This document shows positions 16,056-32,276 of a stretch of DNA of 64,000 nucleotides, one piece after another. Positions within the stretch are counted from its first letter, which is position 1, and every line of letters begins with the position of its first letter. Source of the DNA: Sutcliffiella horikoshii (GTDB taxonomy: Bacteria > Bacillota > Bacilli > Bacillales > Bacillaceae_I); NCBI RefSeq assembly GCF_002157855.1, contig NZ_CP020880.1, forward strand, positions 806,001-870,000, given 5' to 3'. Made by a program: the position numbers and the translations under genes. Under the pieces are notes generated by a model. It ran no database searches, was not told the origin of the DNA, and worked only from the letters and a program-made list of their open reading frames with translations.

Positions 16056-16076
16056 TTTTGAAATTAAGTTTCAAAA
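16056..16076 (+). promoter_or_regulatory. Candidate MurR operator palindrome
   Basis: TTTTGAAA-ttaag-TTTCAAAA is a perfect inverted repeat with a 5-bp spacer, ending 13 bp before the -35 box. RpiR/MurR-type regulators usually bind palindromes near the promoters of their own sugar operons, and murR is the second gene here. The assignment is inference. Confidence 0.55.
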
Positions 16077-16089
16077 TAAAAAATAATTG

Positions 16090-16118
16090 TTGACACTAAA
16101 TATCAGAAAATTTATACT
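16090..16118 (+). promoter_or_regulatory. Sigma-A promoter of the MurNAc salvage operon
   Basis: TTGACA at 16090-16095 and TATACT at 16113-16118 are separated by 17 bp. This near-consensus promoter lies 31 bp before the first start codon. Confidence 0.8.
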
Positions 16119-16148
16119 TATCTTAATAAAAGTGTTAGGGGATAAACA

Positions 16149-17144
16149 ATGATTATAGGCATTGATGGGGGAGGCACCAAGACTACCGGAATGGCTGTAG
16201 ATGAGGATGGCAAGGTCCTGGCATTTAAAACAGTAGGTCCCTCTAACCCGAATAGTTCGACAGAAGAAACAGTTCGTTCAGAAATAAATGAGTTGATCTC
16301 TATTTTAACAAAAGGGAAAGCGCTTACAGAAGAAGATGTTGTTTTTGCCGGTATTTCTGGTGTTGAAAGTGGCGGGAAAAAAGAATGGTTCATCAAGTTG
16401 TTGAGAGAGTTCACGGGACCGCTTGCAAAAATTTTTGTTGATAATGATGCTGTAACAGCACTATATTCTGAAACACAAGGCCAGCCGGGGATCGTATGTA
16501 TCAGCGGAACAGGTTCTATCGTTTTTGGAATTAATGACAAGCTAAAACGTGACCGTGTAGGTGGCTGGGGGTTCCTGATTGGCGATGGGTATAGTGGATT
16601 TGCAATAGGAAAAAAAGCGTTAGAGTGTATTTTTTCCGAATTCGATCGTGGCGAGTTACCTGGAGAAATGGCAACTCTGATTCTCAAAAAATTCGATGTA
16701 AATACAATTCCAGAACTGATACCCAATATGTATGAGTTGGGGAAAAGCCGGGACCGTGTTGCCTCCATTGCTAAAATCGTGCTAGAGCTTGCTGATAAAG
16801 GTGATGAAAGAGCCATCGAATTCCTGTATGAAGCAGCAGAGTGCATGTTGAAAGATATTACTCTACTCTTTCATAAATTATATGAGGTTGAAGGCGACCA
16901 CAAGCAAATACCTATTGTGTTAACAGGTGGAATCAATCAGCATGCCAAAGTAATAATAAACTATCTACAAGAAAAAGGGTTGAAAGAGCGTTCGCCGTTT
17001 TCTTTCAAGCTGGCAGCCCAACAACCTGTGGCAGGTGCTATCTATGCTAGTCATAGGGAAACGGGAAAAAACATCACGCCTTCTTTTGTAAAAAGGTTGG
17101 AAGAAGAGTTAACAACATGGATGAAAACGGATGTTAAAGGATGA
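16149..17144 (+). CDS. murK: BadF/BadG-type amino-sugar kinase (MurK/NagK-like)
   Basis: Cytoplasmic ATP-dependent kinase of the BadF/BadG/BcrA superfamily. The phosphate loop GIDGGGTKTTGMAVDEDG, the second phosphate motif GIVCISGTGSIVFGIND with GGWGFLIGDGYSG, and the adenosine motif VLTGGINQ are in the right order over 331 aa. Relatives include human N-acetylglucosamine kinase and clostridial MurK, which phosphorylates both MurNAc and GlcNAc at O-6. Its place before murR and murQ argues for the MurK role, since sugar taken up by an ABC transporter arrives unphosphorylated. ATG follows AGGGGATAA. It is the first gene of the operon. Confidence 0.85.
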   Translation: MIIGIDGGGTKTTGMAVDEDGKVLAFKTVGPSNPNSSTEETVRSEINELISILTKGKALTEEDVVFAGISGVESGGKKEWFIKLLREFTGPLAKIFVDNDAVTALYSETQGQPGIVCISGTGSIVFGINDKLKRDRVGGWGFLIGDGYSGFAIGKKALECIFSEFDRGELPGEMATLILKKFDVNTIPELIPNMYELGKSRDRVASIAKIVLELADKGDERAIEFLYEAAECMLKDITLLFHKLYEVEGDHKQIPIVLTGGINQHAKVIINYLQEKGLKERSPFSFKLAAQQPVAGAIYASHRETGKNITPSFVKRLEEELTTWMKTDVKG

Positions 17145-17150
17145 TAGAAA

Positions 17151-18002
17151 ATGAATGGTGGTCTATTACGCTTACGTGAAGCGTTATCAACAATTAATCC
17201 GGCGGAGAGGAATGCCGCTACTTTTATACTTGAAAACCCTGAGCAGGTTTGCACATTATCAGTAAAGGAATTAGCTGATAAAAGCAATTCCAGCCAAGCT
17301 GCTATCATAAGACTTTGTAAGAAAATCGGCCTGGACGGATACAAAGAATTAAAGCTGCGCATAGCGGGGGATGTTACAAGCATCTCGTCTAACAGCCAAG
17401 AAGCATATCATGAGTTTAAATATAACGCAGATATTCCGACATTTATGAAAACCATTACCGAAAACAATATTAAATCTTTACGAGACACATTGGAATTACT
17501 TGATAAAGAGGAAGTATCCAAAGCAGTCGAGTTGTTACATAAAGCACATAGAATAGACTTCTACGGAGTGGCGGCATCACAGCTCATCGCGCAGGATGCA
17601 CAACAGAAATTCATGCGGATAAACAAACTTTGCACCGCATACAGCGATTCCCATCTACAACTGACTTCTGCTACAACGATGACTAAGGGTGATGTAGCTG
17701 TTGGGATATCGTATTCGGGAGAAACAACACAGACGATTGAAGCATTAAGGGAAGCGCAAAAGGCAGGAGCTGCAACAATCGCCATTACGAAGTACGGAAA
17801 TAATACTCTGAAGGAACTATCCGATATTTCTTTATCCATTTCTTCCATGGAATCTTCCATTCGAAGTGCAGCAACTTCTTCTAGAATCTCGCAATTGAAT
17901 GTAATAGATATATTATTCACAGCAGTTGCTGCGATTGACTTTGAGCAATCAGTCGAATATTTGAAAAAATCCAGAGAGACAATCAATAAGACATACAGAT
18001 AA
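17151..18002 (+). CDS. murR: MurR/RpiR-family transcriptional regulator
   Basis: DNA-binding regulator of 283 aa. An N-terminal helix-turn-helix (TLSVKELADKSNSSQAAIIRLCKKIGLDGYKELK, about residues 35-70) is followed by a SIS sugar-phosphate isomerase-like domain (about 125-260) with VAVGISYSGETTQTIEALREAQKAGA. In this family the SIS domain senses a phosphosugar; E. coli MurR responds to MurNAc-6-P. It lies 6 bp after the kinase gene. It probably controls this operon through the palindrome at 16056-16076 and is likely to be a repressor, but activation cannot be excluded. Confidence 0.9.
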   Translation: MNGGLLRLREALSTINPAERNAATFILENPEQVCTLSVKELADKSNSSQAAIIRLCKKIGLDGYKELKLRIAGDVTSISSNSQEAYHEFKYNADIPTFMKTITENNIKSLRDTLELLDKEEVSKAVELLHKAHRIDFYGVAASQLIAQDAQQKFMRINKLCTAYSDSHLQLTSATTMTKGDVAVGISYSGETTQTIEALREAQKAGAATIAITKYGNNTLKELSDISLSISSMESSIRSAATSSRISQLNVIDILFTAVAAIDFEQSVEYLKKSRETINKTYR

Positions 18003-18030
18003 TAAGAGTGTCATAAAAAAGGTGATGGTG

Positions 18031-18945
18031 ATGATGGGATTAGAAAATTTACAAGACTTAGTGACAGAGCAGCAAAATTTAAAAACATTAAAAATCGATC
18101 GTAAATCTACTGAAGAGATTCTTGAAGTCATCAATGAGGAAGACCAAACAGTTCCAACACATATAAAAAGGGAAATCCCGAGCATTGCTGCGGTAGTGGA
18201 TCAAGTGGTGAAATCCTTTGAAGTGGGAGGTCGGCTCTTCTATGTTGGTGCAGGAACGTCCGGTAGAATCGGAATCCTGGATGCATCGGAATGTCCTCCG
18301 ACTTTTGGAACTCCATCAGAAATGGTGAAGGCGATTATTGCAGGCGGAGAGTCGGCCATTTTTAAAGCGGTGGAGGGTGCAGAAGACAGTGAAGAACTGG
18401 GAGCCTCTGACATACACAGCAATGGGGTAAGGCTTCATGATGTGGTTATAGGCATCACGGCGAGCGGAAGAGCACCTTATGTAATAGGTGCGCTAAAAGA
18501 AGCGAAGAAGCTTGGAGCAAGTACAGTCTCCTTCACCTGCACAAAGGATTCTGCCCTTAATAAAGTAGCAGATTATAAGATTAATATAGAGGTTGGTCCT
18601 GAAGTGATCACGGGATCCACAAGAATGAAAGCTGGTACCACACAAAAGCTGGTTCTTAATATGATTACAACCACTTCCATGGTGAAACTAGGAAAAGTTT
18701 ATAACAACTTGATGGTGGATGTTCAACCGCTGAATAAAAAATTGGTGGACCGAGCAAAAAGGATTATCCAAAATGTGACTGGCTGCACATTTGATGAAGC
18801 TAGTGAGCTTTTTGATCAATCAGAAGGTAATCCGAAAATTGCCATTCTCATTTTCACCTGCCAAGTCGACAAAGACAAGGCGGCAGAATTATTGAAAAAC
18901 GCAAAGGGATTCGTTTATAAGGCTATTAAGGCTTATAATAAATAA
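18031..18945 (+). CDS. murQ: N-acetylmuramic acid 6-phosphate etherase
   Basis: Cytoplasmic enzyme that removes the D-lactyl ether from MurNAc-6-P to give GlcNAc-6-P and lactate. The SIS fold motifs GGRLFYVGAGTSGRIGILDASECPPTFG, then ASGRAPYVIGALKEAKKLGA and GPEVITGSTRMKAGTTQKLVLNM, are those of MurQ and include the active-site Glu of ASECPP. The length of 304 aa is normal. Several start codons are stacked (GTG, ATG, GTG, ATG, ATG); ATG 18031 is chosen because AAAAGGTG lies 6 nt upstream. It lies 28 bp after murR. Confidence 0.95.
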   Translation: MMGLENLQDLVTEQQNLKTLKIDRKSTEEILEVINEEDQTVPTHIKREIPSIAAVVDQVVKSFEVGGRLFYVGAGTSGRIGILDASECPPTFGTPSEMVKAIIAGGESAIFKAVEGAEDSEELGASDIHSNGVRLHDVVIGITASGRAPYVIGALKEAKKLGASTVSFTCTKDSALNKVADYKINIEVGPEVITGSTRMKAGTTQKLVLNMITTTSMVKLGKVYNNLMVDVQPLNKKLVDRAKRIIQNVTGCTFDEASELFDQSEGNPKIAILIFTCQVDKDKAAELLKNAKGFVYKAIKAYNK

Positions 18946-18967
18946 AAAATTTCAAGGGGGAATTGGT

Positions 18968-20290
18968 TTGAAAAGGGGTTTAAGTTTAATAATGGTCATG
19001 TTGCTTGTAGCTGCCGTGATTCTTGGTTGCTCCAACAATTCATCGACATCATCCGATGGAAAAGACGTTGTAACAGTTTGGACATATCCTGTTCATGGTG
19101 AATATGAAGCAGAACTAGAAGAGTTGATTGCTTCATTCGAAAAAGAAAACGAAGATATTAAAGTAGAATATGAAGTATTAAGTTGGGCTGAGGGTCCACA
19201 GAAGTTTGATATTGCTTTGAACTCTGGTAATCCACCGGATGTTTATTTTGGGAAACCACAAGGTAAATATGTGGATTCCGGTTTAATTGTAAATCTTAAT
19301 GACAAATTAAATGTATCTCAAGATGATTATAATGAAGTTGCTTTAGACTATATGAAAATTGAGGACAATCTATACGGATTGCCAATCTACATGTTCTTAC
19401 ATGTATGGGGTGGAAACAAACAAATGCTAGAAGCCGCTGGCGTTGATTATGAAAAGATCCAACAAGAGGGCTGGACATGGGATGAGTTTGAAGAACTAGC
19501 ATCTAAAGGTGTTGGCAAGAAAGACTCTGGTGAAGATACTTACGGATTTGTATTCCAAGGTAACAACGAAGAACTTCTTGTTCATTTAGCGATGAACAAT
19601 GGTCTGCCAAACCGTTATAATGCGGATGGAACAACTTGGAATGACGATAAAATTTTAGACACAATGAAATATATCTCGAACTTAGTTGATTCTGGTATCA
19701 TGCCAAAAGAAACTGCTGCAGTGGATCCTGCAAAACGTATGGAATTGTTCTATAACCACCAAGCAATGTTCTTTGGGCGCGCTATCCCTTATTTCGACCC
19801 GGTAGTAGCTGCTCACAATGAAGAAATCAAAGCAGGTAAAGTCGAAGGGGAAGAAGTAGATTTCGTTCTATTGCCAATCCCTCATAACGAAGGGGAAGAA
19901 CAAGTATCATTCGGTGGATCTGAAGGATACATGTTATTCACTCAAAAGAATGCGAAAGAAGAACACTTGAATAACAGCGTTAAAGTATTAGAACACCTAA
20001 CAAGTGCAGAGGCTGGTAAAGCTGCAGCTGCATTAGCATTGCCACAAGTTCATAAAGATGCTGAAGGCAAGTTTGAAATGCCATTGGCTCCTTATAATGA
20101 AACAGCAGCGGAAGTTCTGGCTTCTAAAGTGTTACCTCCAGCAAACACAAGTGCTGAAATGGCGGCAAAAGATGATCGCTTCCGTACAGAAGTTGTCATC
20201 CCGACATTCCAAGGTCTACTAAGCGGTGAATTGACACCTGAAGAAGCGTTAGAAACGTTTAAGACCAAGGGTGATGAAATCTTTAAGTAA
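18968..20290 (+). CDS. Sugar ABC transporter substrate-binding lipoprotein
   Basis: Extracellular binding protein of the carbohydrate CUT1 type (SBP family 1), 440 aa. The N-terminus is a lipoprotein signal ending in VILGC with the lipidated Cys at 21, then a Ser/Asn-rich linker. VVTVWTYPVHGEYEAELEELIASFEKENEDIKVEYE is the usual first lobe; NPPDVYFGKPQG and FEELASKG also fit. Context points to MurNAc or MurNAc-containing disaccharides as ligand, which is inference. TTG 18968 is chosen behind AAGGGGG. A hairpin after the stop codon probably keeps its expression above that of the permeases. Confidence 0.9.
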   Translation: MKRGLSLIMVMLLVAAVILGCSNNSSTSSDGKDVVTVWTYPVHGEYEAELEELIASFEKENEDIKVEYEVLSWAEGPQKFDIALNSGNPPDVYFGKPQGKYVDSGLIVNLNDKLNVSQDDYNEVALDYMKIEDNLYGLPIYMFLHVWGGNKQMLEAAGVDYEKIQQEGWTWDEFEELASKGVGKKDSGEDTYGFVFQGNNEELLVHLAMNNGLPNRYNADGTTWNDDKILDTMKYISNLVDSGIMPKETAAVDPAKRMELFYNHQAMFFGRAIPYFDPVVAAHNEEIKAGKVEGEEVDFVLLPIPHNEGEEQVSFGGSEGYMLFTQKNAKEEHLNNSVKVLEHLTSAEAGKAAAALALPQVHKDAEGKFEMPLAPYNETAAEVLASKVLPPANTSAEMAAKDDRFRTEVVIPTFQGLLSGELTPEEALETFKTKGDEIFK

Positions 20291-20299
20291 GGTAACAGG

Positions 20300-20335
20300 A
20301 AAAGAGGAGGGGGTAACGCTCTTCCTCTTTTATTT
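20300..20335 (+). terminator. Intra-operon hairpin/attenuator after the binding-protein gene
   Basis: AAAAGAGGA at 20300-20308 pairs with TCCTCTTTT at 20323-20331, then T-rich sequence. Such partial terminators are common between binding-protein and permease genes and allow unequal expression. Confidence 0.65.
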
Positions 20336-20351
20336 TCAAGGAGGTGTAGAC

Positions 20352-21272
20352 ATGTCAGCGAAACCGGCAGCAGCCGCAACTACCAACAAATTTAATTTCT
20401 CCCAGTTTATAAAAGATTATGGATGGTGTTATGCCTTCATAGCCGTTCCTATCATTCTCTTTTTAATGTTTACACTTTTTCCAGTAGGTTACGCCTTTAT
20501 TATGAGTTTTCAAAACTATCATGTATTAGGTTCCACTTGGGTAGGGTTGGAAAACTATCAAACGATGGTGAACGATGATATCTTTTGGAAAGCAATGTGG
20601 AATACATTCATTTTCACAGTGGGGACTGTGCCTGTGAATGTTGCCATTACTCTATTTTTGGCAGTCTTAATCTTTCCTCGTGCCAAAAAGGCTCAAACTT
20701 TTTTCAAAGCGTCCTTATACCTTCCAACGGTAGCTTCTGGGGTAACGATCGCATTAGTATGGTTCTGGATTTATGATCCTACCACTGCAGGACTTTTTAA
20801 TATGTTCTTAGGTCTTTTTGGTATCGATAACATCATGTGGCTCGGGCAGAGTAGTACAGCATTATTTTCTATCATGCTAATGTCTTATCTGACAGGACAT
20901 GGCGCCGGTATTATTCTTTACCTCGCAGCACTTGGTGGAATTCCGAAATCACTTTATGAAGCTGCAGATATCGATCACGCTTCTGAGTGGTCGAAGTTTA
21001 GAAATATCACATGGCCGCTATTGAAGCCTACTACTTTATATCTTTTAGTAACAGGTATCATCATGAGTTTCCAAGTGTTCATGAGTATCTATCTTATGAC
21101 TCAAGGTGGTCCAAACTTTGCGACTACCACCATTGCCTATTTAATTTACACACATGCTTTCGAATATTATAAATTCGGTTTGGCAGCGGCAGAATCATTT
21201 GTTCTTGGAGCCGTAATTATTGTGGCTTCCATCATCCAATTTAAAGTCATGTCATCTGATGTTGAATTTTAG
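20352..21272 (+). CDS. Sugar ABC permease, MalF/UgpA type
   Basis: Membrane permease of a CUT1 sugar importer, 306 aa with six helices. The first is AFIAVPIILFLMFTLFPVGYAFIMSF. The EAA loop is EAADIDHASEWSKFRNITWPLLKP. ATG 20352 is chosen because GGAGGTG lies 6-7 nt before it; the longer open frame has no ribosome site. It pairs with the next gene and the ATPase at 22194. Confidence 0.9.
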   Translation: MSAKPAAAATTNKFNFSQFIKDYGWCYAFIAVPIILFLMFTLFPVGYAFIMSFQNYHVLGSTWVGLENYQTMVNDDIFWKAMWNTFIFTVGTVPVNVAITLFLAVLIFPRAKKAQTFFKASLYLPTVASGVTIALVWFWIYDPTTAGLFNMFLGLFGIDNIMWLGQSSTALFSIMLMSYLTGHGAGIILYLAALGGIPKSLYEAADIDHASEWSKFRNITWPLLKPTTLYLLVTGIIMSFQVFMSIYLMTQGGPNFATTTIAYLIYTHAFEYYKFGLAAAESFVLGAVIIVASIIQFKVMSSDVEF

Positions 21273-21290
21273 GAAAGGAGGAAACATCTA

Positions 21291-22184
21291 TTGGAAACGA
21301 CAACGGTAAGCAATCAAAATTATGCAGAAATTGCTTTGAAAAAAGAAAAAGCAAGAAATCGCAAAAAGAAGATTTATAGTGTGATCAGTTACAGCATCCT
21401 GATCTTATGGGTTATTATCACCATCATCCCTCTATATTGGATGTTAATTTCCTCCTTCCGGGATACCACTGTCAGTGTCTCCTTTAAACCTGAGTGGTTC
21501 CCATCCGAAGTGACACTTGCCACATATGTTCGATTTTTGACAGAAACCGATGCACTGCGTTGGTTATTCAATAGTATTTTCGTATCATCTGTTTTAACGT
21601 TATCAAATGTTGTTTTCTCTTCTCTAGCAGGATATGCATTTGCCAAACTGCGATTCCCGGGAAGAAATACTATTTTCTGGTTACTGCTTGGTACGATGAT
21701 GATACCGGCACAGGTAACATTGATTCCGGTTTACATTATGATTGTAAATGTATTCGGGCTAGTAGATACATATTTAGCCATTATGCTCCCCATGTTTACT
21801 GTAGTGGGCAATATCTTTTTGATGAAGCAGTATATGTCTACACTTCCTACCACTCTTATTCAAGCTGCGCGTATCGACGGATGCAGTGAGATTGGTATTT
21901 TCAGAAAGATTATATTGCCAATATCTAAGCCTGGTGTGGCTGTATTAGCAATCTTCACGTTTGTGTCTACTTGGAATGAATTCTTTTGGCCGTTCCTTGT
22001 TACGCAATCCAGTTCCATGAGAACGATACAAGTTGGATTGGCTAGTTTTAAATTCCAAGATGCAACAGATTATGGGGCAATGATGGCAGGCTCCATGCTT
22101 GCTGCACTGCCAATGTTCATATTGTTCTTTGCATTACAGCGTTACTTCTTACAAGGAATTACAATAGGTGCAGTGAAAGGATAG
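21291..22184 (+). CDS. Sugar ABC permease, MalG/UgpE type
   Basis: Second permease of the importer, 297 aa. It has a basic cytoplasmic N-terminus, six helices and the EAA loop QAARIDGCSEIGIFRKIILPISKPG, ending with the usual FLQGITIGAVKG. TTG 21291 follows AAAGGAGG at proper spacing and is the only sensible start. It lies 18 bp after the first permease. Confidence 0.9.
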   Translation: METTTVSNQNYAEIALKKEKARNRKKKIYSVISYSILILWVIITIIPLYWMLISSFRDTTVSVSFKPEWFPSEVTLATYVRFLTETDALRWLFNSIFVSSVLTLSNVVFSSLAGYAFAKLRFPGRNTIFWLLLGTMMIPAQVTLIPVYIMIVNVFGLVDTYLAIMLPMFTVVGNIFLMKQYMSTLPTTLIQAARIDGCSEIGIFRKIILPISKPGVAVLAIFTFVSTWNEFFWPFLVTQSSSMRTIQVGLASFKFQDATDYGAMMAGSMLAALPMFILFFALQRYFLQGITIGAVKG

Positions 22185-22193
22185 GTGGAAGAA

Positions 22194-23303
22194 ATGGCAA
22201 GTATCATTATGGAAAACATCACAAAAACCTTCGTGGACGAAAAGCGTGGCGGAACTTTCACTGCTGTAAATGATGCCAGCTTTGAGATAAAAGATAAAGA
22301 GTTCCTTGTTTTTGTAGGACCATCCGGATGTGGAAAAACGACTTCCCTCCGCATGATTGCAGGACTTGAAAGACAAACTTCAGGAAACATCTACATTGGA
22401 GATAAAGTAGTAAACAATATGCACCCAAAAGATAGAGATATCGCGATGGTGTTCCAGGACTATGCGCTTTATCCGCATATGACCATTGAACAGAACTTGG
22501 AATTTGGATTAAAGAATATGAAAACATCTAAAGAAGAAATAAAAAAGAAGGTTCAATATGCTTCCAGAATACTTGGGCTTGATGAGATGTTGGATAGAAA
22601 ACCAAAAGAATTGAGCGGAGGGCAACGACAACGTGTGGCTGTAGGTAGAGCGATTGTCCGTGACCCGAAAGTGTTCCTTTTTGATGAACCTTTATCCAAC
22701 TTGGATGCCAAATTGCGTGTGCAAATGCGAATTGAGTTGGCAGAGTTGCATCAGAGATTAGGGGCGACCATCGTTTACGTTACCCATGATCAGGTGGAAG
22801 CAATGACACTTGGGGAACGAATTGTTGTGATGAATAAAGGGGAAGTCCAACAGATCGCTTCACCGAGAGAACTGTACCGCAACCCAGCAAACATGTTTGT
22901 GGCAGGATTCATCGGCTCACCGCCAATGAACTTTTTCGATGCAGTACTTGAAACGGCATCTACCTTACGAATTGGCGACATTATCTTCACTATTCCAGAA
23001 GCACTCGTAAAACAATATTCAGATTATGTTGGCAAAAAGGTTATCTTAGGTTTACGACCGGAAGATATTTACGATGAAGAGTTTGCGTTCACGGTTCCAA
23101 CCAACAATAAAGCGGCCATAAAAGTAAAGGCGATGGAACATCTAGGTGGGGAAAACCTTGTCTACTTCTCGATTGGTGATCGCTTGATTACCGCGAAAGT
23201 ACATGGTGAGAGTTTTGTCCGTCCTGGGGAAGCGAAAAATTATGTATTCAACCTAGATAAAATGCATCTGTTTGATATTGAAACAGAGAAAAGAATATTT
23301 TAA
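22194..23303 (+). CDS. Sugar ABC transporter ATP-binding protein, MsmX/UgpC type
   Basis: ATPase subunit of 369 aa. Walker [11 protein letters not shown], the Q-loop [10 protein letters not shown], signature [13 protein letters not shown], Walker [13 protein letters not shown] and the H-loop VTHDQ are all present, and a C-terminal TOBE regulatory domain starts near residue 240. ATG 22194 follows AGGTGG by 5 nt. In B. subtilis many CUT1 importers share one unlinked MsmX; here the operon carries its own ATPase, which may also serve other importers. Confidence 0.92.
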
Positions 23304-23352
23304 TAGACTTTAACAATAGCAATAAAGAACAGATATTAAAGGAGAGAGTGTA

Positions 23353-24027
23353 ATGGATGGATTAACACAAATTATAAGAGTCACAGGGAGAGAATATTAC
23401 AAACATATAGTTTCTATGGTCATGATCAGCCTTATAATGGTGACGGTACTTAGTCCATCCTTCTTTCTCATTAAACTGCCTTTTTCTCTTGTATACGTCA
23501 TGATCGTAATGGGACCTTTACTTGTTGGGGCTGCCTGGGCGGTTCAACAATTACTGCTTGATAGAAGCACATCTGTCATTAAGAGTTTCTTTCAGGGAGT
23601 AAAGAAATACTTCCTTCCAAGTATCGGGTACAGCTTGTTTTTGTCCTTTTTCGTCCTTATCATTGCTGCTTCCTGGTGGCATTATCATCAAGTGGGTGGA
23701 ACGTTTGCCTTTGCATTAGCGTGCTTTCAGACTTATTTTTGCGGCATGGTTTTCTTAAGTCAGATTTATACGGTTCCTTTATTGGTGAAATTTGAGTATT
23801 CATTGAAGGATAGTATCTTCACCAGTGTGAAACTTTTGGTGAAAAATCCTTTATATACCATTCTATCGTTCTTCCAAATCTTATCGGTTTTTGCTTTATT
23901 GATATTAACTGTTGTGGGCCTTTTCATTATTTTCCCTGCGCTTGCAACACTTTTCAATAATATCGTGACAAGTACCGTTATTGCTACAGAAGAAAACATC
24001 GATAGTTGGGAGACGGCAAATATTTAG
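23353..24027 (+). CDS. DUF624 membrane protein, YesL-like
   Basis: Five- or six-helix membrane protein of 224 aa in the YesL/DUF624 family, which is regularly found next to CUT1 sugar importers but has no proven function. Features include a long hydrophobic stretch at about 25-65, GAAWAVQQLLLDRSTSVIKSFFQGVKKYF, and repeated helices to the C-terminus. ATG follows AAAGGAGAG. It lies 49 bp after the ATPase gene and 9 bp before namZ. An accessory role in import is an inference from context. Confidence 0.8.
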   Translation: MDGLTQIIRVTGREYYKHIVSMVMISLIMVTVLSPSFFLIKLPFSLVYVMIVMGPLLVGAAWAVQQLLLDRSTSVIKSFFQGVKKYFLPSIGYSLFLSFFVLIIAASWWHYHQVGGTFAFALACFQTYFCGMVFLSQIYTVPLLVKFEYSLKDSIFTSVKLLVKNPLYTILSFFQILSVFALLILTVVGLFIIFPALATLFNNIVTSTVIATEENIDSWETANI

Positions 24028-24036
24028 GAGGAAAAC

Positions 24037-25197
24037 ATGGCCAAAGTCTTGTATGGAATTGATTGTTTTGTAGAAGTAGATTCAGGTGCGTGGAGCGGAA
24101 AAAGAATTGCGCTTGTAACAAATCAAACAGGAATTACTTCCGATTTCCGCTCTACCATCGATGTGTTGAAGGAGATGGAGGGAGTCTCCCTTCATAAACT
24201 TTTTGCATGTGAACATGGTGTAAGAGGAGATGTTCAGGCAGGTGTGCATGTAGAAGATTTTATTGATGAAAAGACAGGGTTACCTGTTTTTAGCTTATAT
24301 GGTCTATCCAAAAAGGTATCTACAGAGTTGTTAGAAGATGTAGATGCCATTTTTTTTGATATTCAAGATGTTGGAGTAAGATTTTATACATATTTAGCCA
24401 CAGTAAAGTACATCATGGAGGCTTGTCAGCAGACTGGGACGGCATTTGTAGTAATGGATCGTCCGAATCCCATTGCACCGCTTATGTCAGGGAATACCTC
24501 GGAGGCTGAATTTGTTTCTTTTGTCGGTCCTCATTCCTTGCCGGTTTGTCTTGGGTTGACGATAGGGGAATATGCAAGGCTGATACAAAAGGAATTATAT
24601 CCGGAAGTGGATTTGCATGTGTATGAGGTAAAGAATTGGGGTCGTGACATGTGGGGCGATCAATGGCAGCAACAATGGATTCCGCCATCTCCTAACATTC
24701 CACACTTCACCACTACTTTATGTTATCCCATTACATGTTTTATAGAAGGAACGAACCTATCAGAGGGAAGAGGCACTACTAAACCGTTTGAGTGGATTGG
24801 TTCTCCTTGGTTTAAGCCAGAAGAGATGATTCAGCATTTCGCTGATAAAAACATAGAAGGTGTGGAGCTTATTCCTGCTTACTTTACACCAAACATGAGT
24901 AAGCATGCTGGTGAACTTTGTAAGGGAGTTCAACTTTTGGTTACAGGTCGCGACTCTTTAGAAGTTTCCAAAGCAGCTTATGAGCTATTGCATTCTATCT
25001 TTTCTGTGCATGAAGAGGCAGCGTGGCTAGAACCCTTTAAAGAAGGCATGCACCCTTTTATCGACCTACTGTGGGGAACGGAAAAAGTCCGGTGTGGAAT
25101 CGACGCCCTTTTGCCGTATGAGGTGGTAGCAGAAAGCTGGGACAGAAAATTAGAAGATTGGAACAAACGAATAAATTCCATATTACTTTATAAATGA
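24037..25197 (+). CDS. namZ: NamZ-type exo-beta-N-acetylmuramidase (YbbC, DUF1343), no signal peptide
   Basis: Glycosidase that releases MurNAc from the non-reducing end of peptidoglycan fragments, by similarity to B. subtilis NamZ (YbbC). The family motifs RIALVTNQTGI, FACEHGVRG, DVDAIFFDIQDVGVRFYTYL, MDRPNPI, EGTNLSEGRGTTKPFEWIG and a conserved C-terminal domain are present over 386 aa. B. subtilis NamZ is exported. This protein starts MAKVLYGIDCFVEVD with no signal peptide or lipobox, so it should act in the cytoplasm on imported disaccharides. GAGG stands 6 nt before the ATG. No better upstream start exists. Confidence 0.9.
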   Translation: MAKVLYGIDCFVEVDSGAWSGKRIALVTNQTGITSDFRSTIDVLKEMEGVSLHKLFACEHGVRGDVQAGVHVEDFIDEKTGLPVFSLYGLSKKVSTELLEDVDAIFFDIQDVGVRFYTYLATVKYIMEACQQTGTAFVVMDRPNPIAPLMSGNTSEAEFVSFVGPHSLPVCLGLTIGEYARLIQKELYPEVDLHVYEVKNWGRDMWGDQWQQQWIPPSPNIPHFTTTLCYPITCFIEGTNLSEGRGTTKPFEWIGSPWFKPEEMIQHFADKNIEGVELIPAYFTPNMSKHAGELCKGVQLLVTGRDSLEVSKAAYELLHSIFSVHEEAAWLEPFKEGMHPFIDLLWGTEKVRCGIDALLPYEVVAESWDRKLEDWNKRINSILLYK

Positions 25198-25213
25198 TAG
25201 AGGAGGACTTGGA

Positions 25214-26818
25214 ATGAAGACAATTCACGAAATGTCATTGCAAGAAAAAGTTGGTCAATTGTTTGTTGCGGGATTTCACGGTACTGCCCCTTCTGAAGAG
25301 ATAGTGAAATTAATAAAAGACTATCATATAAGCGGAGTCATTTATTTTGCACGAAATGTGGAAAATCCCAAACAGGTTCATGCGCTTTCAAAAGAATTGC
25401 AAAAAGCTGCCAAGGATGCGGGAGCAGCTCCACTGTTCATTTCCATTGATCAGGAGGGAGGAATGGTTGCCCGTATAACAGAGGGGGTGACGTTAAGCCC
25501 CGGGAACATGCCACTTGGAGCAGGACGTGATGTAGAGACAGTTTACCAGCTAGGAAAAGTAGTGGGGACGGAACTTCGCTTGCTTGGGATAAACATGAAT
25601 TACGCGCCATGCATTGATGTGAACAACAACCCTTTGAACCCTGTCATCGGTGTTCGTTCGTATGGCGAGAGCGCAGAGTTTGTTGCGAAGATGGGGGTAC
25701 AAGCGGTGAAGGGATTTCAGGATGCCAATGTCTCTGCAGTTGTCAAACATTTTCCGGGTCATGGAGATACTAGCGTGGACTCACATTTAGACCTTCCTGT
25801 GGTTCATCATGATTTAAAGAGATTAAAAGAGTTGGAACTGATTCCTTTTTATGAAGCATTTAAGCATGGAGTGGATGCTGTCATGGTCGCCCATGTCGCC
25901 TTTCCTTCTATTGATCCAGAGAAAGTACCTTCCACTTTATCCCGTAAGGTTGTAACGGAATTACTACGTGGAGAAATGGGCTATGACGGTGTGGTTGTGA
26001 CCGATTGCATGGAAATGAATGCAATTATTGATTATTTTGGAATAGAAGAAGCTGCGATCCTGGCCATCGAAGCAGGAATCGATCAAGTCCTGATCAGCCA
26101 TACGTTTGAGCGACAGACAAGTGCGATTGAAGCGGTTATAAAAGCAGTGGAATTGGGCCGGATCTCATTAGAGCACATTGACGCAGCGGTGGAGAGGGTT
26201 CTTACATTGAAGAAAGCACGTAATCTTCAAGAAGGTCTTCATGAATGGCATGATTGTGAAAGTGAAATTGGCACTTCAAGCAATGTTGAACTTGCGCAAA
26301 CAGCTAGTGAAGCGAGCATCACACTTGTAAGGGAAAGTGTTGGACTACTTCCACTTACATCTAAAGACAAAATTCTGCTGATATCTGTAGATCCTTATGT
26401 CACCTCAGGAGCAGATGAAACTTTATATTCACAGGTCACTATTGGTAGCTTCTTAGAGGGGAAATTACCAAATCTAACAGAAGTCATCATTTCTGTCACT
26501 CCAGAGGAAGAAGAGATAGAAAAGCTACTTCTTTTAGCTTCAGGTGTGGATAAAGTAATGGTTGCGACATATCAAGCCGTTCAGCACGATTCACAGGCGG
26601 ATCTTGTTCGAAGACTTGTTATGAAATATGGTGATAAGGTAGGCGTTATCGCGTTAAGAAGTCCATATGATGTGGATAAGTTCCCAGAGGTATCCACCTA
26701 TATCCTTACTTATGAAAGCAGGAAACTTGCCCTTCAGTCGGTCAGCAAATTCCTCTTAGGCGAAATGGAAGCAAAAGGGAAGCTACCTATTACACTTGGT
26801 ACAGCTCAGGTAAATTAA
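25214..26818 (+). CDS. nagZ: Beta-N-acetylglucosaminidase NagZ (GH3), cytoplasmic form
   Basis: Family 3 glycoside hydrolase that removes GlcNAc from peptidoglycan-derived sugars. The catalytic Asp-Ser-His of the mobile loop is D189-S190-H191 in KHFPGHGDTSVDSH, and the nucleophile is Asp264 in VVVTDCMEMN. A C-terminal domain from about residue 350 follows, giving 534 aa. B. subtilis NagZ is longer and exported as a lipoprotein; this one begins MKTIHEMSLQEKVGQLFVAG with no signal. With NamZ it should split MurNAc-GlcNAc units inside the cell. It lies 16 bp after namZ; GAGGAGG precedes the ATG. Confidence 0.93.
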   Translation: MKTIHEMSLQEKVGQLFVAGFHGTAPSEEIVKLIKDYHISGVIYFARNVENPKQVHALSKELQKAAKDAGAAPLFISIDQEGGMVARITEGVTLSPGNMPLGAGRDVETVYQLGKVVGTELRLLGINMNYAPCIDVNNNPLNPVIGVRSYGESAEFVAKMGVQAVKGFQDANVSAVVKHFPGHGDTSVDSHLDLPVVHHDLKRLKELELIPFYEAFKHGVDAVMVAHVAFPSIDPEKVPSTLSRKVVTELLRGEMGYDGVVVTDCMEMNAIIDYFGIEEAAILAIEAGIDQVLISHTFERQTSAIEAVIKAVELGRISLEHIDAAVERVLTLKKARNLQEGLHEWHDCESEIGTSSNVELAQTASEASITLVRESVGLLPLTSKDKILLISVDPYVTSGADETLYSQVTIGSFLEGKLPNLTEVIISVTPEEEEIEKLLLLASGVDKVMVATYQAVQHDSQADLVRRLVMKYGDKVGVIALRSPYDVDKFPEVSTYILTYESRKLALQSVSKFLLGEMEAKGKLPITLGTAQVN

Positions 26819-26820
26819 CC

Positions 26821-28008
26821 ATGCTTCAGAAACTATTAAACGTTACAAGTAAACCGGAGCGGATCGGACTTGGCATTATGTCTGGAACGTCTGTAGATGG
26901 CGTGGATGTGGCAATTATTTCTGTGAAAGGCAGCGGGGAAGAGCTGAGTTATCAACAACTTGCCTTTGATACGGTGGATATTCCTCAAGCGTTGAGACGG
27001 GAGATTTTTAAACAGTTCAGCCCTGCCGAGAGCTCTGTGGATAAACTGTGCAGTCTTAATTTTAAACTCGGGGAGTTATTTTCCACAGCTGCTCGTTCGG
27101 TTGTGGAAAAAGCAGGTTTAAGTTTAAAGGATATTGACTTCATCGGGTCCCATGGACAAACGATTTATCATATCCCAGTGGATCAGAAAGAGGAAGGTTT
27201 AGTAAAATCGACCTTGCAGATCGGAGAAGCATCAGTTCTTGCAGAGAAGTTTCAATGCCCTGTCATCTCTGATTTCCGGGTCCGCGATATGGCGGCTGGT
27301 GGGGAAGGTGCACCATTAGTTCCTTATGTGGATTATTTACTTTTCCGTTCTGAAACGGAGAATATCGCCTTGCAGAACATTGGAGGCATTGGGAATGTTA
27401 CCTATCTATCTAAAGGTGGCTCTGCTTCTGATGTGATCGCGTTTGATACGGGACCGGGGAATATGATTATGGATGAGGCGGTTCGTATTCTGACGCATGG
27501 TAAATTCTTGTTTGATAAAAATGGGGAGCTGGCTGCTAGAGGTAAGGTCAACGAGGAATTTTTAAATGAGTTAATGGCGCATCCTTACTTTACGTTGCCT
27601 GTACCTAAAAGTACGGGCAGGGAGATGTTCGGGGCTACTTTTACGAGAAAGCTAGTTGATAGAATGCTTGAGAAGGGGCTATCTTCTGCTGATATCTTGG
27701 CAACAGTAACAATGTTTACAGCTATGACTATTGTAAATCAATTAGATCGATTTCTTCCTAGTGGAGGTGGAGTTGACACGCTTGTTGTGAGTGGCGGAGG
27801 GGCTTATAATGCTACCCTTCTTGGTTACTTGAAGGTGTTAGGTAGTTTTGCGGTGAAAACACAGGAGGATTTGGGGTTTTCAAGCGATTCTAAAGAGGCG
27901 GTGGCTTTTGCATTATTGGCAAATGAGACGTTGTTCGGTGTGCCAAATAATGTACCAAGTGCAACTGGTGCGGCTAAGCAGGTGGTGCTTGGGAAGTTGA
28001 CGATTTGA
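26821..28008 (+). CDS. anmK: Anhydro-N-acetylmuramic acid kinase
   Basis: Kinase that opens 1,6-anhydro-MurNAc and phosphorylates it to MurNAc-6-P, the substrate of MurQ. Family motifs are GLGIMSGTSVDGVDVAI at the start, IGSHGQTIYH, FDTGPGNMIMDEA and the adenine loop VVSGGGAYNATLL. The length of 395 aa is normal. The start lies 2 bp after nagZ with only a weak ribosome site (CAGGTAAATTAACC), which suggests translational coupling. It ends the operon. AnmK occurs in many Bacillus species and implies that anhydro-muropeptides, made by lytic transglycosylases or obtained from Gram-negative neighbours, are also recycled. Confidence 0.93.
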   Translation: MLQKLLNVTSKPERIGLGIMSGTSVDGVDVAIISVKGSGEELSYQQLAFDTVDIPQALRREIFKQFSPAESSVDKLCSLNFKLGELFSTAARSVVEKAGLSLKDIDFIGSHGQTIYHIPVDQKEEGLVKSTLQIGEASVLAEKFQCPVISDFRVRDMAAGGEGAPLVPYVDYLLFRSETENIALQNIGGIGNVTYLSKGGSASDVIAFDTGPGNMIMDEAVRILTHGKFLFDKNGELAARGKVNEEFLNELMAHPYFTLPVPKSTGREMFGATFTRKLVDRMLEKGLSSADILATVTMFTAMTIVNQLDRFLPSGGGVDTLVVSGGGAYNATLLGYLKVLGSFAVKTQEDLGFSSDSKEAVAFALLANETLFGVPNNVPSATGAAKQVVLGKLTI

Positions 28009-28311: not shown

Positions 28312-29652
28312 CTATTTGCTGCCTTCTAATTGACCCTCCAACCCCTCTAACAAAAAGTCTGCAATATGAATGGCCCTCAGCACCCCGCTTAATCCTTCTC
28401 GCTCAATCCCAAGCTTCATTTGCAACAAGCATCCCGGGTTCGCAGTCACAATGGTCGTTGCCATACTTTCGGCAACTTTCTCCATTTTGTGATCCAGGAT
28501 CTGCATGGACATTCCCGATTCGACGATGTTGTAAATTCCGGCAGAGCCGCAGCATCGGTCAGCATCTTTCATCTCATAGAAGTCTGCACCAGCCACTGCC
28601 TGCAATAAAACCCTTGGCTGAAGAAAGGTGCCCTGTACATTGCGGAGGTGGCAGGAGTCCTGGTAGGTAACTCGTTGTGGTTGCACCGACAAATCTTTCT
28701 CATGAAACTTCAATTCCACCAAAACGGCGGACATATCTTTGATTTTCTCTTTAAAAGCAACCGCCCTCATAAACCACTCGGGATCATCTTTCAGCAGATG
28801 GTCGTAGTCCACAAGAAAGGCTCCGCATCCACCTGCATTGGTGATGATATAGTCAACTTCCAAGTCTTCAAACGCAGCGATATTACGCTTTGCAAGCTCC
28901 TTCCCCATATTCTTCTCGCCACTATGGCCGTGAAGCGCTCCACAGCAATTTTGCTCCTTTGGTATGACAATTTCACAGCCTGCATGCTGTAAAAGCTTGA
29001 TTGTGGCATCATTTGTCTTAAGGAACATCGTATCCATCAGACACCCGGAAAAGAAAGCTACCCGTTTTTTCTGTGCTTGAAGGGCTGGCAGATGTGTAGG
29101 CCGATTTTTCATTTCCTTCATGGTAGGCACTTTTGGCAGAACACGCTCCATACTTGTCATACTATCCGGTAACAATCTTAGTAATCCAGAGTGATGAACG
29201 GCGCTTTGAAGTCCAGAGCGTTGATAGATTCCCAGTAAGTTTGTCAAAACACGCATCCGATTTTGGTACGGAAACAGTCCTTCAAAAACAGTCTGCCTCA
29301 GCACCCTTACCGGAAGCGAGTGCTTTTTGTTTTGATTGATGATGTCGCGTGCTTCTTCAAGCAAGTGGCCATATTTTACACCTGAAGGACAAACAGGTTC
29401 ACAAGCTCGGCAGCCTAAGCACAGATCAAGGGTGCGTTCGACATCTTCGTCTGGTTCGATGACGCCATCTACCACTGCTTTCATCAAGGCGATTCGGCCT
29501 CGTGGGGAATGGGATTCTTTGAAACCAGACTCTATATAGGTTGGACAAGAGGGAAGGCAGAAGCCACAGCGCATACAGTTCAGCAGTTCATCCTCATCCA
29601 TGCGTTTTTTAAATTCGTCTTGAATGACTTGCTTTTCTTTTACAGAGGTCAT
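28312..29652 (-). CDS. glcF: Glycolate oxidase iron-sulfur subunit GlcF
   Basis: Electron-transfer subunit that works with GlcD in oxidising glycolate (or lactate) to the 2-oxo acid. Two [4Fe-4S] motifs are near the N-terminus: CMRCGFCLPSCPTY and CLGCRACEPVCPSG. Two CCG domains follow (SGCLMDT with NCCGALHGHSG; DSCHLRN with DRCCGSAGIY). The length of 446 aa matches B. subtilis YsfD. It overlaps glcD by 4 nt (ATGA), so the two are translationally coupled. Confidence 0.92.
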   Translation of the reverse strand: MTSVKEKQVIQDEFKKRMDEDELLNCMRCGFCLPSCPTYIESGFKESHSPRGRIALMKAVVDGVIEPDEDVERTLDLCLGCRACEPVCPSGVKYGHLLEEARDIINQNKKHSLPVRVLRQTVFEGLFPYQNRMRVLTNLLGIYQRSGLQSAVHHSGLLRLLPDSMTSMERVLPKVPTMKEMKNRPTHLPALQAQKKRVAFFSGCLMDTMFLKTNDATIKLLQHAGCEIVIPKEQNCCGALHGHSGEKNMGKELAKRNIAAFEDLEVDYIITNAGGCGAFLVDYDHLLKDDPEWFMRAVAFKEKIKDMSAVLVELKFHEKDLSVQPQRVTYQDSCHLRNVQGTFLQPRVLLQAVAGADFYEMKDADRCCGSAGIYNIVESGMSMQILDHKMEKVAESMATTIVTANPGCLLQMKLGIEREGLSGVLRAIHIADFLLEGLEGQLEGSK

Positions 29653-31061
29653 CTTGACACCACCACCCGTTTTCTGGATTCCTTCGCAAAAACCTTGCCG
29701 GGATTCATGATGTTGTTCGGGTCGAATGCCAGTTTAATAGCCTTCATGGCTGCGATACCTTCTGCCCCTAGCTTCCACTCCAGGTAAGGTGCCTTCATCA
29801 TTCCGACACCGTGCTCGCCGGTGATGGTTCCGCCAAGTTCAATTGCCTTTGCAAAAATGTCTTCAAATGCCGCTTCGACCCGTTCCATTTCTTCGTGGTC
29901 ACGAGCGTCCGTCGCAACTGTAGGGTGAAGATTGCCGTCCCCTGCATGTCCGAATGTACAGATTTTCACCTGGTGCTTGATCGCAATCTCATTGATCGCT
30001 TTTACCATTGCGGCGACTTCCGAGCGTGGGACCGTTGCATCCTCGAGTATCGTCGTCGGCTTCAGTCTTGCGAGTGCGGATAAAGCAGAGCGTCGGGCGG
30101 TACGTAATGCTTCTGCTTCTAGTTCAGATTGAGCCACCTGAACGGAAACAGCCCTTTCTGCCAGACAAATCTCCTGTATTTTTTGCATATCCCTTGCCAC
30201 CACTTCAAGCGGGCCGTCCTGCTCAATCAGAAGAACAGCCTGCACGTCTGTAGGGAGGCCGATTTTAGCAAAATCCTCCACAACCTCAAGGGTCGGCTGA
30301 TCTAGAAACTCAAGTGTAGCAGGGATGATCTTATTGGAAATGATGGTGGAAACGGTTTTGGCTGCGGCCTCGATATCTTGATAGAGGGCAAGCATCGTCT
30401 GCTTCGTTTCCGGCATGGGCACAAGTTTCAACGTTGCTTCTGTGATGATGCAAAGCGTTCCTTCTGAACCGACAAATAGTCTTGTAAGGTCATAACCTGC
30501 AACATCCTTCGCCAGCTTGCCGCCCGTCCGGATGACATCCCCATTCGGCATAACGGCCTCCAATGCAAGCACATAGTCTCGCGTTACACCGTATTTTAAT
30601 CCGCGCAATCCACCTGAATTTTCATTAATGTTTCCGCCAATCGTGGATATTTTCATGGAGCTTGGATCTGGTGGATAAAATAGCCCTTTCGCTTCAACCG
30701 CTTGAATCATATCAAGGGTGACAAGGCCAGGCTGAACGGTCGCTGTTAAGTTCTCTTCATCCAACTCAAGGAGCTTGTTCATGCGGGTGAAAAGGAGCAC
30801 GATACCGCCTTCTGTTGGACAGGTTCCTGCGCAAAGGTTGGTGCCGGATCCTCTAGGGACGAGTGGAATCTTGTGTTCGTTGCATAGTCTTACGATTTGA
30901 GAGACTTCTTCTGTGTTGCGGGGAACGATGATAGCATCCGGCATTGCTTGATAATTTGGTGTGGCATCATAGGAATAGACAAGCTTTTCGGCCTTGCTGT
31001 CCAAATAATTTTCGGATCCTACAATATGGATGAATTGCTTTTTTAACCGTTCACTTATCAT
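29649..31061 (-). CDS. glcD: Glycolate oxidase FAD subunit GlcD
   Basis: FAD-linked oxidase of 470 aa. The FAD-binding PCMH domain covers about residues 40-215, with PRNTEEVSQIVRLCNEHKIPLVPRGSGTNLCAGTCP and DPSSMKISTIGGNINENSGG. The C-terminal oxidase domain ends with the FGHAGDGNLHPT and GGTITGEHGVGMMK motifs that hold substrate and flavin. ATG follows GGGAGGG by 7 nt. In B. subtilis the equivalent ysfC is induced by the neighbouring regulator YsfB; the same neighbour is present here. Confidence 0.93.
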   Translation of the reverse strand: MISERLKKQFIHIVGSENYLDSKAEKLVYSYDATPNYQAMPDAIIVPRNTEEVSQIVRLCNEHKIPLVPRGSGTNLCAGTCPTEGGIVLLFTRMNKLLELDEENLTATVQPGLVTLDMIQAVEAKGLFYPPDPSSMKISTIGGNINENSGGLRGLKYGVTRDYVLALEAVMPNGDVIRTGGKLAKDVAGYDLTRLFVGSEGTLCIITEATLKLVPMPETKQTMLALYQDIEAAAKTVSTIISNKIIPATLEFLDQPTLEVVEDFAKIGLPTDVQAVLLIEQDGPLEVVARDMQKIQEICLAERAVSVQVAQSELEAEALRTARRSALSALARLKPTTILEDATVPRSEVAAMVKAINEIAIKHQVKICTFGHAGDGNLHPTVATDARDHEEMERVEAAFEDIFAKAIELGGTITGEHGVGMMKAPYLEWKLGAEGIAAMKAIKLAFDPNNIMNPGKVFAKESRKRVVVSR

Positions 31062-31154
31062 AAAAAAACCCTCCCAGTCTATAAAACATCTTATCTTTAT
31101 TTTAAAAGAAGGAAGGGGGGAACTCTATGTATATTTATCTAAAGTAATAGCTGG

Positions 31155-32276
31155 TCAACTAGTGCTTTTTTGTAGAATCATCCAAAAGCATGCAGCTAGG
31201 TAAAGAGTAGTCAAATCATGCGGTTTTTTCAGTTCTAAACCAGTTAACATCTCCACTTTACGTAAGCGGTAATGCAAAGTATTAACATGGATATGCATGG
31301 CTTTGGCCGTCTCTTTCAAGGATAAGTGGAAGGTAAAATAGACCTGAATTGTTTCAAGTAAATCCTTCTCCGATATGATAGGTGATAGGAGACGTTGAGC
31401 AAATTCTTTCTTCACCTCAAAAGGGATTGCTTGCAATATCATTTCAAGGCGAAGGTCTTCTTCAAATATAATCGGCACATCCATCGAACAGGCGTTCAGA
31501 GCTCTTTCAGCCTCCAGATAGGAATCTTTTAACGAAGAATAGTTGCATGCTTTCCCAATTCCCATAAAAATAGGTGCAGCGATATAGCTTTGAAGTTGAG
31601 ATTGGATATTTTTCAGCATCTTAAGGAGTGGTTCTCTGTTCAAAGTATTATGGCTTGCCAGAAGTAATATCAGTCTGTTCTGTCCCCATTGCACAAAAAT
31701 GTCTTCCTTCTTCAGGTCCACATCCATTTCGGAAAAATGCCATCTCTTTGTTTTCATGAACGCTTCACTTGTCTGAAACTCTATTAAAATAACTTGTCGA
31801 TTCACTTCCATGTTTATTCCTAGCACTTCCGCACGTTTTTTAATGGAAGTGGATGGCCCGTCTTCCAATAACCAATCAAACACAAATGTTTCCATTGATC
31901 TTGCTTCCCATTCAAATTGGTCCTGATAATGACTTTCTTGAATCAATAGCTCTGTCATTTTTTTGATCAATTCCCCGTATGGAAGCACTTTTTCTGGCGT
32001 TCCTGTAATACCGATTACGCCAACAACTTTTTGCTGATGGAAGAGGGGAAGGGTGATGCCGGCTTTTACACCGGATAGAGTTGTTTCATCCTGTTTTGAT
32101 ATCACACGCATTTGCTTTTCTGCTGCTGCAAGATATGCCCCTTCATGGAAATTACTAAGTCTATCAGGGTCTGTGCTTGCAACGATGATACCGGATGTAT
32201 CGACGATAATTAAGTCTTCTTCTATAAAATTTTTCACTTCTCTTATGATCTTTTTGGCAAGGGATGTTCGTAGCAA
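31155..32276 (-). CDS. CdaR-family regulator of glycolate oxidase (YsfB-like)
   Basis: Transcriptional regulator of 373 aa. An N-terminal sugar-diacid recognition domain covers about residues 1-135 (LAKKIIREVKNFIEEDLIIVDTSGIIVASTDPDRL, GVIGITGTPEKV), a GGDEF-like middle follows, and a PucR-type helix-turn-helix is at the C-terminus (SLKETAKAMHIHVNTLHYRLRKVE). It lies upstream of glcD on the same strand, 93 bp apart, and probably activates glcDF in response to a hydroxy acid. TTG 32276 follows AGGAGG by 8 nt. B. subtilis YsfB is the closest relative I recognise. Confidence 0.88.
   Translation of the reverse strand: MLRTSLAKKIIREVKNFIEEDLIIVDTSGIIVASTDPDRLSNFHEGAYLAAAEKQMRVISKQDETTLSGVKAGITLPLFHQQKVVGVIGITGTPEKVLPYGELIKKMTELLIQESHYQDQFEWEARSMETFVFDWLLEDGPSTSIKKRAEVLGINMEVNRQVILIEFQTSEAFMKTKRWHFSEMDVDLKKEDIFVQWGQNRLILLLASHNTLNREPLLKMLKNIQSQLQSYIAAPIFMGIGKACNYSSLKDSYLEAERALNACSMDVPIIFEEDLRLEMILQAIPFEVKKEFAQRLLSPIISEKDLLETIQVYFTFHLSLKETAKAMHIHVNTLHYRLRKVEMLTGLELKKPHDLTTLYLAACFWMILQKSTS

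Follow-up and report, generated by a model that had tools for sequence, protein, structure and literature searches.

The stretch of DNA analyzed here, referred to as the window, comprises 64,000 nucleotides of the Sutcliffiella horikoshii genome (NCBI RefSeq assembly GCF_002157855.1, contig NZ_CP020880.1, positions 806,001 to 870,000 of the forward strand) and contains at positions 16056-28008 an operon that probably encodes a salvage route for cell wall sugars, in which di- or oligosaccharides of peptidoglycan are imported whole and digested inside the cell. This operon unites the glycosidases NamZ and NagZ, the etherase MurQ, a BadF-type kinase and the kinase AnmK with an ATP-binding cassette (ABC) importer of the CUT1 type. 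Its NamZ and NagZ carry no export signals, the genome encodes neither the phosphotransferase system (PTS) importer MurP nor MupG nor an exported NamZ or NagZ, and the gene set recurs in other Bacilli. In the pathway that we propose, a lipoprotein sugar-binding protein (SBP) would bind peptide-free peptidoglycan di- or oligosaccharides, which the CUT1 transporter would import whole. The most likely ligands are peptide-free disaccharides of N-acetylmuramic acid (MurNAc) and N-acetylglucosamine (GlcNAc), namely MurNAc-GlcNAc, which endo-glucosaminidases would produce, and GlcNAc-(anhydro)MurNAc; a single gene with a Glucosaminidase domain, a partial match, is found in the genome. Inside the cell, NamZ and NagZ would cut from the non-reducing end, removing MurNAc and GlcNAc, respectively. 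One kinase with activity on both MurNAc and GlcNAc would phosphorylate the freed sugars, AnmK would open and phosphorylate anhydro-MurNAc ends, and MurQ would convert MurNAc-6-phosphate to GlcNAc-6-phosphate and D-lactate, the former then being processed by the NagA of the genome.

Profile searches place the genes, all on the forward strand, in one row that ends at 28008. The row starts with the BadF/BcrA-family sugar kinase (16149-17144; PF01869, 125 bits), predicted to act on MurNAc and GlcNAc. It is followed by an RpiR/MurR-type regulator (17151-18002), which contains HTH_6 and SIS domains and matches the MurR and RpiR models below their cut-offs, and by the MurNAc-6-phosphate etherase MurQ (18022-18945; TIGR00274, 387 bits, cut-off 302). 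The importer genes come next and are complete: the SBP (18968-20290; SBP_bac_1, with a lipobox read by eye from the sequence), a MalF/UgpA-like permease (20271-21272, the true start of which possibly lies downstream of 20271), a MalG/UgpE-like permease (21291-22184; profile matches) and an importer ATPase of the UgpC/MsmX type (22185-23303; NF008653, 474 bits, cut-off 432). A membrane protein of 224 amino acids (23353-24027), NamZ (24037-25197), the NagZ-type glycosidase of family GH3 (25214-26818) and a member of the anhydro-MurNAc kinase family AnmK (26821-28008; PF03702, 354 bits, over the cut-off) complete the operon. An earlier note on this DNA, made from the sequence alone, had given the gene set, order and coordinates correctly, as judged from the profile matches; the complete CUT1 importer between murQ and namZ (18968-23303) and the BadF-type kinase at the operon head, both of which it had described, are borne out as well. 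The regulator and the 224-residue membrane protein are additional to its gene list.

NamZ matches both domains of its family over their cut-offs (NamZ_N, PF07075, 250 bits; NamZ_C, PF20732, 147 bits), and an exo-N-acetylmuramidase activity is assigned to it from this family. It keeps most of the positions conserved in exported NamZ proteins, with exceptions for example at residues 172 and 379. Among named species, its best match is a protein of S. horikoshii with 90% identity. The GH3 enzyme (PF00933, 325 bits) carries the NagZ-type motif KHFPGHGDTSVDSH and reaches 203 bits against the 207-bit cut-off of the NCBIfam beta-N-acetylhexosaminidase model; the nearest PDB entry is 6k5j, named GH3 beta-N-acetylglucosaminidase (E 4e-152), and B. 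subtilis YbbD/NagZ is matched with E 4e-90. The signal peptide or lipobox that NamZ and NagZ of B. subtilis carry is absent from both proteins, as the earlier note had stated. The reading frame of NamZ can be extended upstream by only three codons and that of GH3 by thirteen, which contain no hydrophobic stretch, so the locus provides neither protein with a signal peptide or lipobox.

The remainder of the genome, which is rated 100% complete in two contigs, does not supply an outside version of the pathway. Over the cut-offs it encodes one NamZ, one MurQ, one BadF kinase and one NagA. Besides the GH3 gene of the operon there is one other, which was considered as an exported NagZ and rejected, as it is a signal-less protein of the BglX type adjoining an ABC permease gene; thus, the search for secreted NamZ or NagZ paralogues that the earlier note had proposed found no exported NamZ or GH3 elsewhere. 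A genome-wide search for the MupG domain (PF05913), the enzyme used by S. aureus, gave no match. The statement of the earlier note that no PTS gene is present holds for the cluster and not for the genome, in which eight PTS_EIIC matches occur outside the operon, and it is therefore narrowed to the absence of MurP. Seven of the eight exceed NCBIfam cut-offs as glucose (two), sucrose, trehalose, lactose/cellobiose family, mannitol and an unnamed IIBC type, and the eighth has no assignment. As the NCBIfam MurP model is too strict for Bacillus, whose MurP proteins it misses (scores of 332 and 327 bits, cut-off 516), the MurP-like protein of a MurQ-RpiR-PTS-GH3-NamZ locus (L053; sampled loci and genomes are designated L and G) was used as a query. 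None of the eight proteins is a MurP by either NCBIfam or this search; the closest counterpart of the query in the genome, at 39% identity, is the sucrose PTS, located beside an apparent fructokinase gene. A second species of this genus (G399) encodes, beside MurQ, a protein that matches the L053 query at 56%. In G399 (L148, L173) the MurQ frame of the operon is broken by an internal TAA, and the second MurQ adjoins, besides this MurP-like PTS, an RpiR gene and, by our own reading, an apparent MupG.

A comparison across Bacilli supports the association of a signal-less NamZ with the importer and the kinases. PF07075 was found in 147 of 398 Bacilli genomes, and 100 loci were hand-picked among the matches listed, mostly from one to three genomes per genus and up to six in the largest; the listing ends at E 3e-72, so weaker NamZ matches are not sampled. 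Export was called by hydropathy, from a mean Kyte-Doolittle value of at least 1.7 over 12 residues ahead of the domain. The window and six named loci stand outside the following counts and are included in the NamZ tree and the GH3 count. NamZ is signal-less in 26 and exported in 74 of the sampled loci, the former being spread over 20 genera and 10 families. Neighbouring genes within 9.5 kb were labelled with profiles grown from the proteins of the window itself, so that the labelling favours loci like the window; with this bias, the kinase was found at 22/26 signal-less versus 4/74 exported loci, MurQ at 20/26 versus 11/74, both CUT1 permeases at 18/26 versus 5/74 and AnmK at 18/26 versus 0/74. 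A MurP-like PTS shows the reverse distribution (0/26 versus 8/74), and GH3 genes differ little (17/26 versus 32/74). The kinase, MurQ, CUT1 permeases, AnmK and GH3 all occur together at 12 of the 26 signal-less loci and at none of the 74 exported ones. Kinase, MurQ, CUT1 permeases and AnmK are kept together in 21 loci with seven different gene orders, which argues for a function beyond mere descent.

Outside the class, 20 loci chosen for NamZ frames of about 380-407 amino acids were inspected, a choice of short proteins that makes them uninformative on how common signal-less NamZ is. MurQ was near in eight of them, the kinase in six, AnmK in five and both permeases in nine. The whole set of enzymes and transporter genes is present in L187 and L188, the former also having the 224-residue membrane protein, and much of it in L178, L185 and L186.

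In a tree of 107 NamZ proteins with the signal region removed, the 33 signal-less proteins form one side of a single branch, with a value of 97 in the Shimodaira-Hasegawa-like approximate likelihood ratio test (SH-aLRT), and the signal-less NamZ is, by this sequence comparison, one subfamily. The tree was calculated by a quick method and gave long-branch warnings, including L071, L105, L124, L140 and L097. In all 56 cases in which the GH3 start can be read, the enzyme has the same location as NamZ: 23/23 are signal-less in signal-less loci and 33/33 have a signal in exported loci (two of 58 were dropped, L094 as a 107-residue fragment and L090 as its start is cut at a contig end). This concordance bears on the idea that both enzymes act extracellularly after release by lysis or by non-classical export, which would amount to the B. 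subtilis layout with MurP replaced by an ABC importer. Signal-less enzymes can indeed turn up outside lysed cells. However, the exported NamZ and GH3 proteins in the same data have ordinary signals, and the signals are lost jointly in both enzymes, so that we regard such an exit as highly improbable.

Of the 16 genomes available for the genus, 15 encode a single NamZ, and the sixteenth, in which none was found, is 80% complete. Nine of these proteins, including the one studied here, are signal-less and located in this operon, and six are exported. The loci L151, L152, L155, L157, L158 and L160 were taken as belonging to the same genomes as L017, L012, L015, L014, L013 and L016, respectively. 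The six exported proteins are encoded behind a GH3 gene with an adjoining PTS gene; in L150, the only one of the six that was tested, the PTS belongs to the GlcNAc type, and the gene that precedes GH3 resembles PBP4B with a score below the cut-off. In these six genomes MurQ resides in a different CUT1 cluster, where no kinase was found next to it and the SBP reaches 72-94 bits against the profile of the window SBP. In this cluster (L166-L172), an RpiR gene, an SBP, two CUT1 permeases and MurQ stand together without a BadF kinase, and L166-L170 and L172 also have a gene of 336-341 amino acids that we read as a beta-lactamase-like hydrolase; judged from its genes, this cluster is possibly another ABC route for MurNAc. 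The exclusivity of inside and outside versions holds in the genus and not everywhere, as three genera hold both kinds of NamZ and two genomes, G018 (L070, L071) and G308 (L135-L137), contain both. Four sampled loci (L058, L117, L119 and L135) combine an exported NamZ and GH3 with CUT1 permeases and a BadF kinase; MurQ is present in three of them and AnmK in none.

The fully intracellular, ABC-fed scheme of the earlier note thus gains support from the lack of exported enzymes and MurP in the genome and from the co-occurrence in Bacilli, with the limit that feeding by an ABC importer is not unique to the intracellular version, as the six genus genomes with exported NamZ and the four mixed loci demonstrate. 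The presence of MurQ beside CUT1 genes in the former indicates that CUT1-fed MurNAc salvage extends beyond this operon, whose distinguishing trait is import before digestion. The same two groups of loci are the arguments for another function, in which the importer carries free MurNAc and GlcNAc made outside by other enzymes, and the cytoplasmic NamZ and NagZ act only on incidental di- or oligosaccharides; where NamZ is exported, a monosaccharide would be the natural ligand. Against this stands that the genome has no exported NamZ or GH3 to produce the monosaccharides, that many loci retain NamZ and GH3 as a pair next to the importer, and that the fold neighbours of the SBP bind oligosaccharides. 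We therefore think that import of free sugars is unlikely here.

The structure model of the SBP, with a mean predicted local distance difference test score (pLDDT) of 85, finds in Foldseek searches its best matches among proteins that bind cycloalternan, cello-oligosaccharides, beta-1,2-glucans and other beta-glucosides, with chitin oligosaccharides lower in the list. The modelled fold would fit an oligosaccharide ligand; naming the ligand from it was tried and given up, as the fold neighbours support only the term oligosaccharide-binding. On the SBP profile of the window, 22 signal-less loci score 264-764 bits and exported loci 34-79, with three signal-less loci at only 54-132 bits (L102, which is cut, L124 and L136); the SBP is not uniform across loci, and this difference is a hint at most. 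The chitin-oligosaccharide-binding proteins among the neighbours, together with the name of the PDB entry nearest to the GH3 enzyme (6k5j), could indicate that the operon mainly serves another aminosugar, for example chitin oligosaccharides, with the MurNAc genes as passengers. NamZ, MurQ and AnmK are, however, families tied to MurNAc, and they recur with the importer in distant lineages and in seven gene orders, which makes such a role very unlikely.

The 224-residue membrane protein follows the ATPase in all 12 loci in which its profile finds it. It resembles MusI weakly (MusI_fam, NF052431, 28 bits against a cut-off of 160; a weak match is seen in five of seven members) and DUF624 likewise below the cut-off (18 bits), and a fold search with its model (pLDDT 73) gave no convincing fold, the best PDB match having E 0.23. 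MusI is an accessory of the corynebacterial maltose importer. This role and the weak likeness are the reasons to read the protein as a probable accessory of the importer.

Splitting MurNAc-GlcNAc in the cytoplasm would call for a kinase that takes MurNAc and GlcNAc, and the kinase at the operon head is predicted from its sequence to accept both. Around the sugar site it resembles 8zo3 and human NAGK, and in the stretch near the lactyl group of the substrate it has GGW as in these two proteins (position mapped by eye). A Glu or His near the lactyl group is described to exclude MurNAc, which human NAGK can accept (PMC10465942); neither residue is found at this place in the window kinase, as would be expected of a MurK. 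The MurK of Clostridium acetobutylicum phosphorylates both MurNAc and GlcNAc (PMC5790795, PMC10465942); 8zo3 bears the same name. The sugar-site loop of the kinases varies: most kinases of the set have GDEGSG, the window, L012, L013 and L017 have GDGYSG, and L014, L015 and L016 have GDRYSG, GDEYSG and QDGSSG, respectively. Among 31 aligned kinases this change is confined to the near kin of the window, apart from a few single differences. In the kinases of L083-L085, a Glu aligns with the catalytic Asp of the family (WVVSEGE or WIVSEGE).

Several observations weigh against an import of whole saccharides with digestion inside. The gene set is loose, as eight of the 26 signal-less loci lack the CUT1 pair within 9.5 kb and four lack the kinase, and in seven of the 20 loci outside the class, one of which is on a 4-kb contig, NamZ stands alone or is accompanied by ATPases only. 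The single origin of the signal-less NamZ means that the locus counts are not independent events; a count of independent origins found just one independent pair in the NamZ tree, so that no sign test is possible. A position that is His in 74/74 exported NamZ proteins is Leu in the window, and His in only 15 of the 33 signal-less proteins. The SBPs of two loci with most or all of the set, L178 and L188, reach just 55 and 50 bits against the profile of the window SBP. Directly ahead of its catalytic Asp, the MurK of Tannerella forsythia has Thr, and kinases expected to refuse MurNAc have Asn, a residue described to hinder the binding of MurNAc (PMC10465942); the window kinase has Asn, as does 8zo3. 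Finally, the PDB chain nearest to AnmK is levoglucosan kinase, a relative, with AnmK next, so that the substrate assignment of this enzyme rests on its context. Taken with these points, the import of di- or oligosaccharides and their digestion inside is still the explanation that we consider probable. As a tentative extension, the importer might take short peptide-free strands longer than a disaccharide, often ending in anhydro-MurNAc, which NamZ and NagZ would strip in alternation until AnmK takes over the anhydro end. If so, this would be a cytoplasmic exo-depolymerization of peptidoglycan glycans in Bacillota, with a specialized intracellular NamZ subfamily.

The proposed pathway shares features with several known systems. 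The B. subtilis cluster murQ-murR-murP-amiE-nagZ-ybbC (namZ) relies on uptake by MurP and on NagZ outside the cell (PMC5061867). Like the window operon, it groups MurQ with an RpiR-type regulator, NagZ and NamZ and provides for the conversion of MurNAc-6-phosphate to GlcNAc-6-phosphate, but MurP both imports and phosphorylates, whereas in the window these tasks would fall to the CUT1 importer and a separate kinase, AnmK is present in addition, and both glycosidases would stay in the cell. In the S. aureus cluster mupG-murQ-murP-murR, MurNAc-GlcNAc is imported by MurP and split by MupG (PMC6262408). Whole import and cytoplasmic splitting of this disaccharide would thus be shared; there, MurP phosphorylates the disaccharide and the 6-phosphomuramidase MupG splits it, while in the window, which has no MupG, unphosphorylated import and cleavage by NamZ are likely. 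The MurT-MurK-MurQ system of T. forsythia likewise uses non-PTS transport, a BadF-like MurNAc kinase and MurQ, but this organism is a Gram-negative auxotroph with another transporter and periplasmic muramidases (PMC10465942, PMC5790795), and with C. acetobutylicum MurK the likeness is that of a kinase for MurNAc and GlcNAc. Import first, followed by cytoplasmic NagZ, AnmK and MurQ, is known from the AmpG/NagZ/AnmK/MurQ route of E. coli, in which AmpG imports anhydromuropeptides and AmpD removes the peptides (PMC5061867), in contrast to the binding-protein importer, NamZ and MurNAc kinase of the window. Streptomyces coelicolor also recycles MurNAc without MurP (PMC5061867).

A 2026 review (PMC13204101) describes NamZ as extracellular and the NagZ of Gram-positive bacteria as extracellular or cytoplasmic, and names ABC transporters for fragment uptake. 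The parts of PMC5507952 and PMC6165865 that were available contain nothing on an ABC importer for MurNAc. No cytoplasmic NamZ or ABC importer for MurNAc-containing oligosaccharides is described in the available parts of the literature searched, a mention in the NamZ founding paper or the C. acetobutylicum MurK paper being possible. If the proposed pathway is correct, it represents a second architecture for wall-sugar salvage in Bacillota that is independent of MurP, and the SBP would be a candidate binding protein for MurNAc-containing oligosaccharides. Digestion inside would also mean that the products are not shared with neighbouring cells. As the inside and outside versions are alternatives within one genus (nine versus six of 15), the two strategies could be compared in close relatives.

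The control region of the operon contains a palindrome of 21 bp (16056-16076), which sits just upstream of the -35 box of a putative sigma-A-type promoter (16090-16118, forward strand) that was read from the sequence and is kept in the named relatives, with TTGACA at 16090, a spacer of 17 bp and TATACT at 16113. The palindrome pattern has one match in the window versus 0.01 expected, and its core ahead of the kinase is kept in all six of the relatives with a name. The distant loci L138 and L143 have similar palindromes as well, at about 105-110 bp ahead of MurQ. It is likely the operator of the RpiR/MurR-type regulator, which would act at this site; the position would suit activation as well as repression.

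Downstream of the operon and convergent to AnmK, positions 28312-32276 of the reverse strand encode, by our own reading, GlcF/GlcD-type (glycolate or D-lactate) dehydrogenase subunits and a CdaR-like regulator. In L013-L017, L106, L131 and L145, too, the signal-less cluster has relatives of GlcD or GlcF in its vicinity, and two exported NamZ genes (L118, L120) have weaker relatives of GlcD nearby. Because MurQ releases D-lactate, a link of these genes to the operon is possible, and their neighbourhood gives a hint that D-lactate dehydrogenase genes could be partners of the operon.

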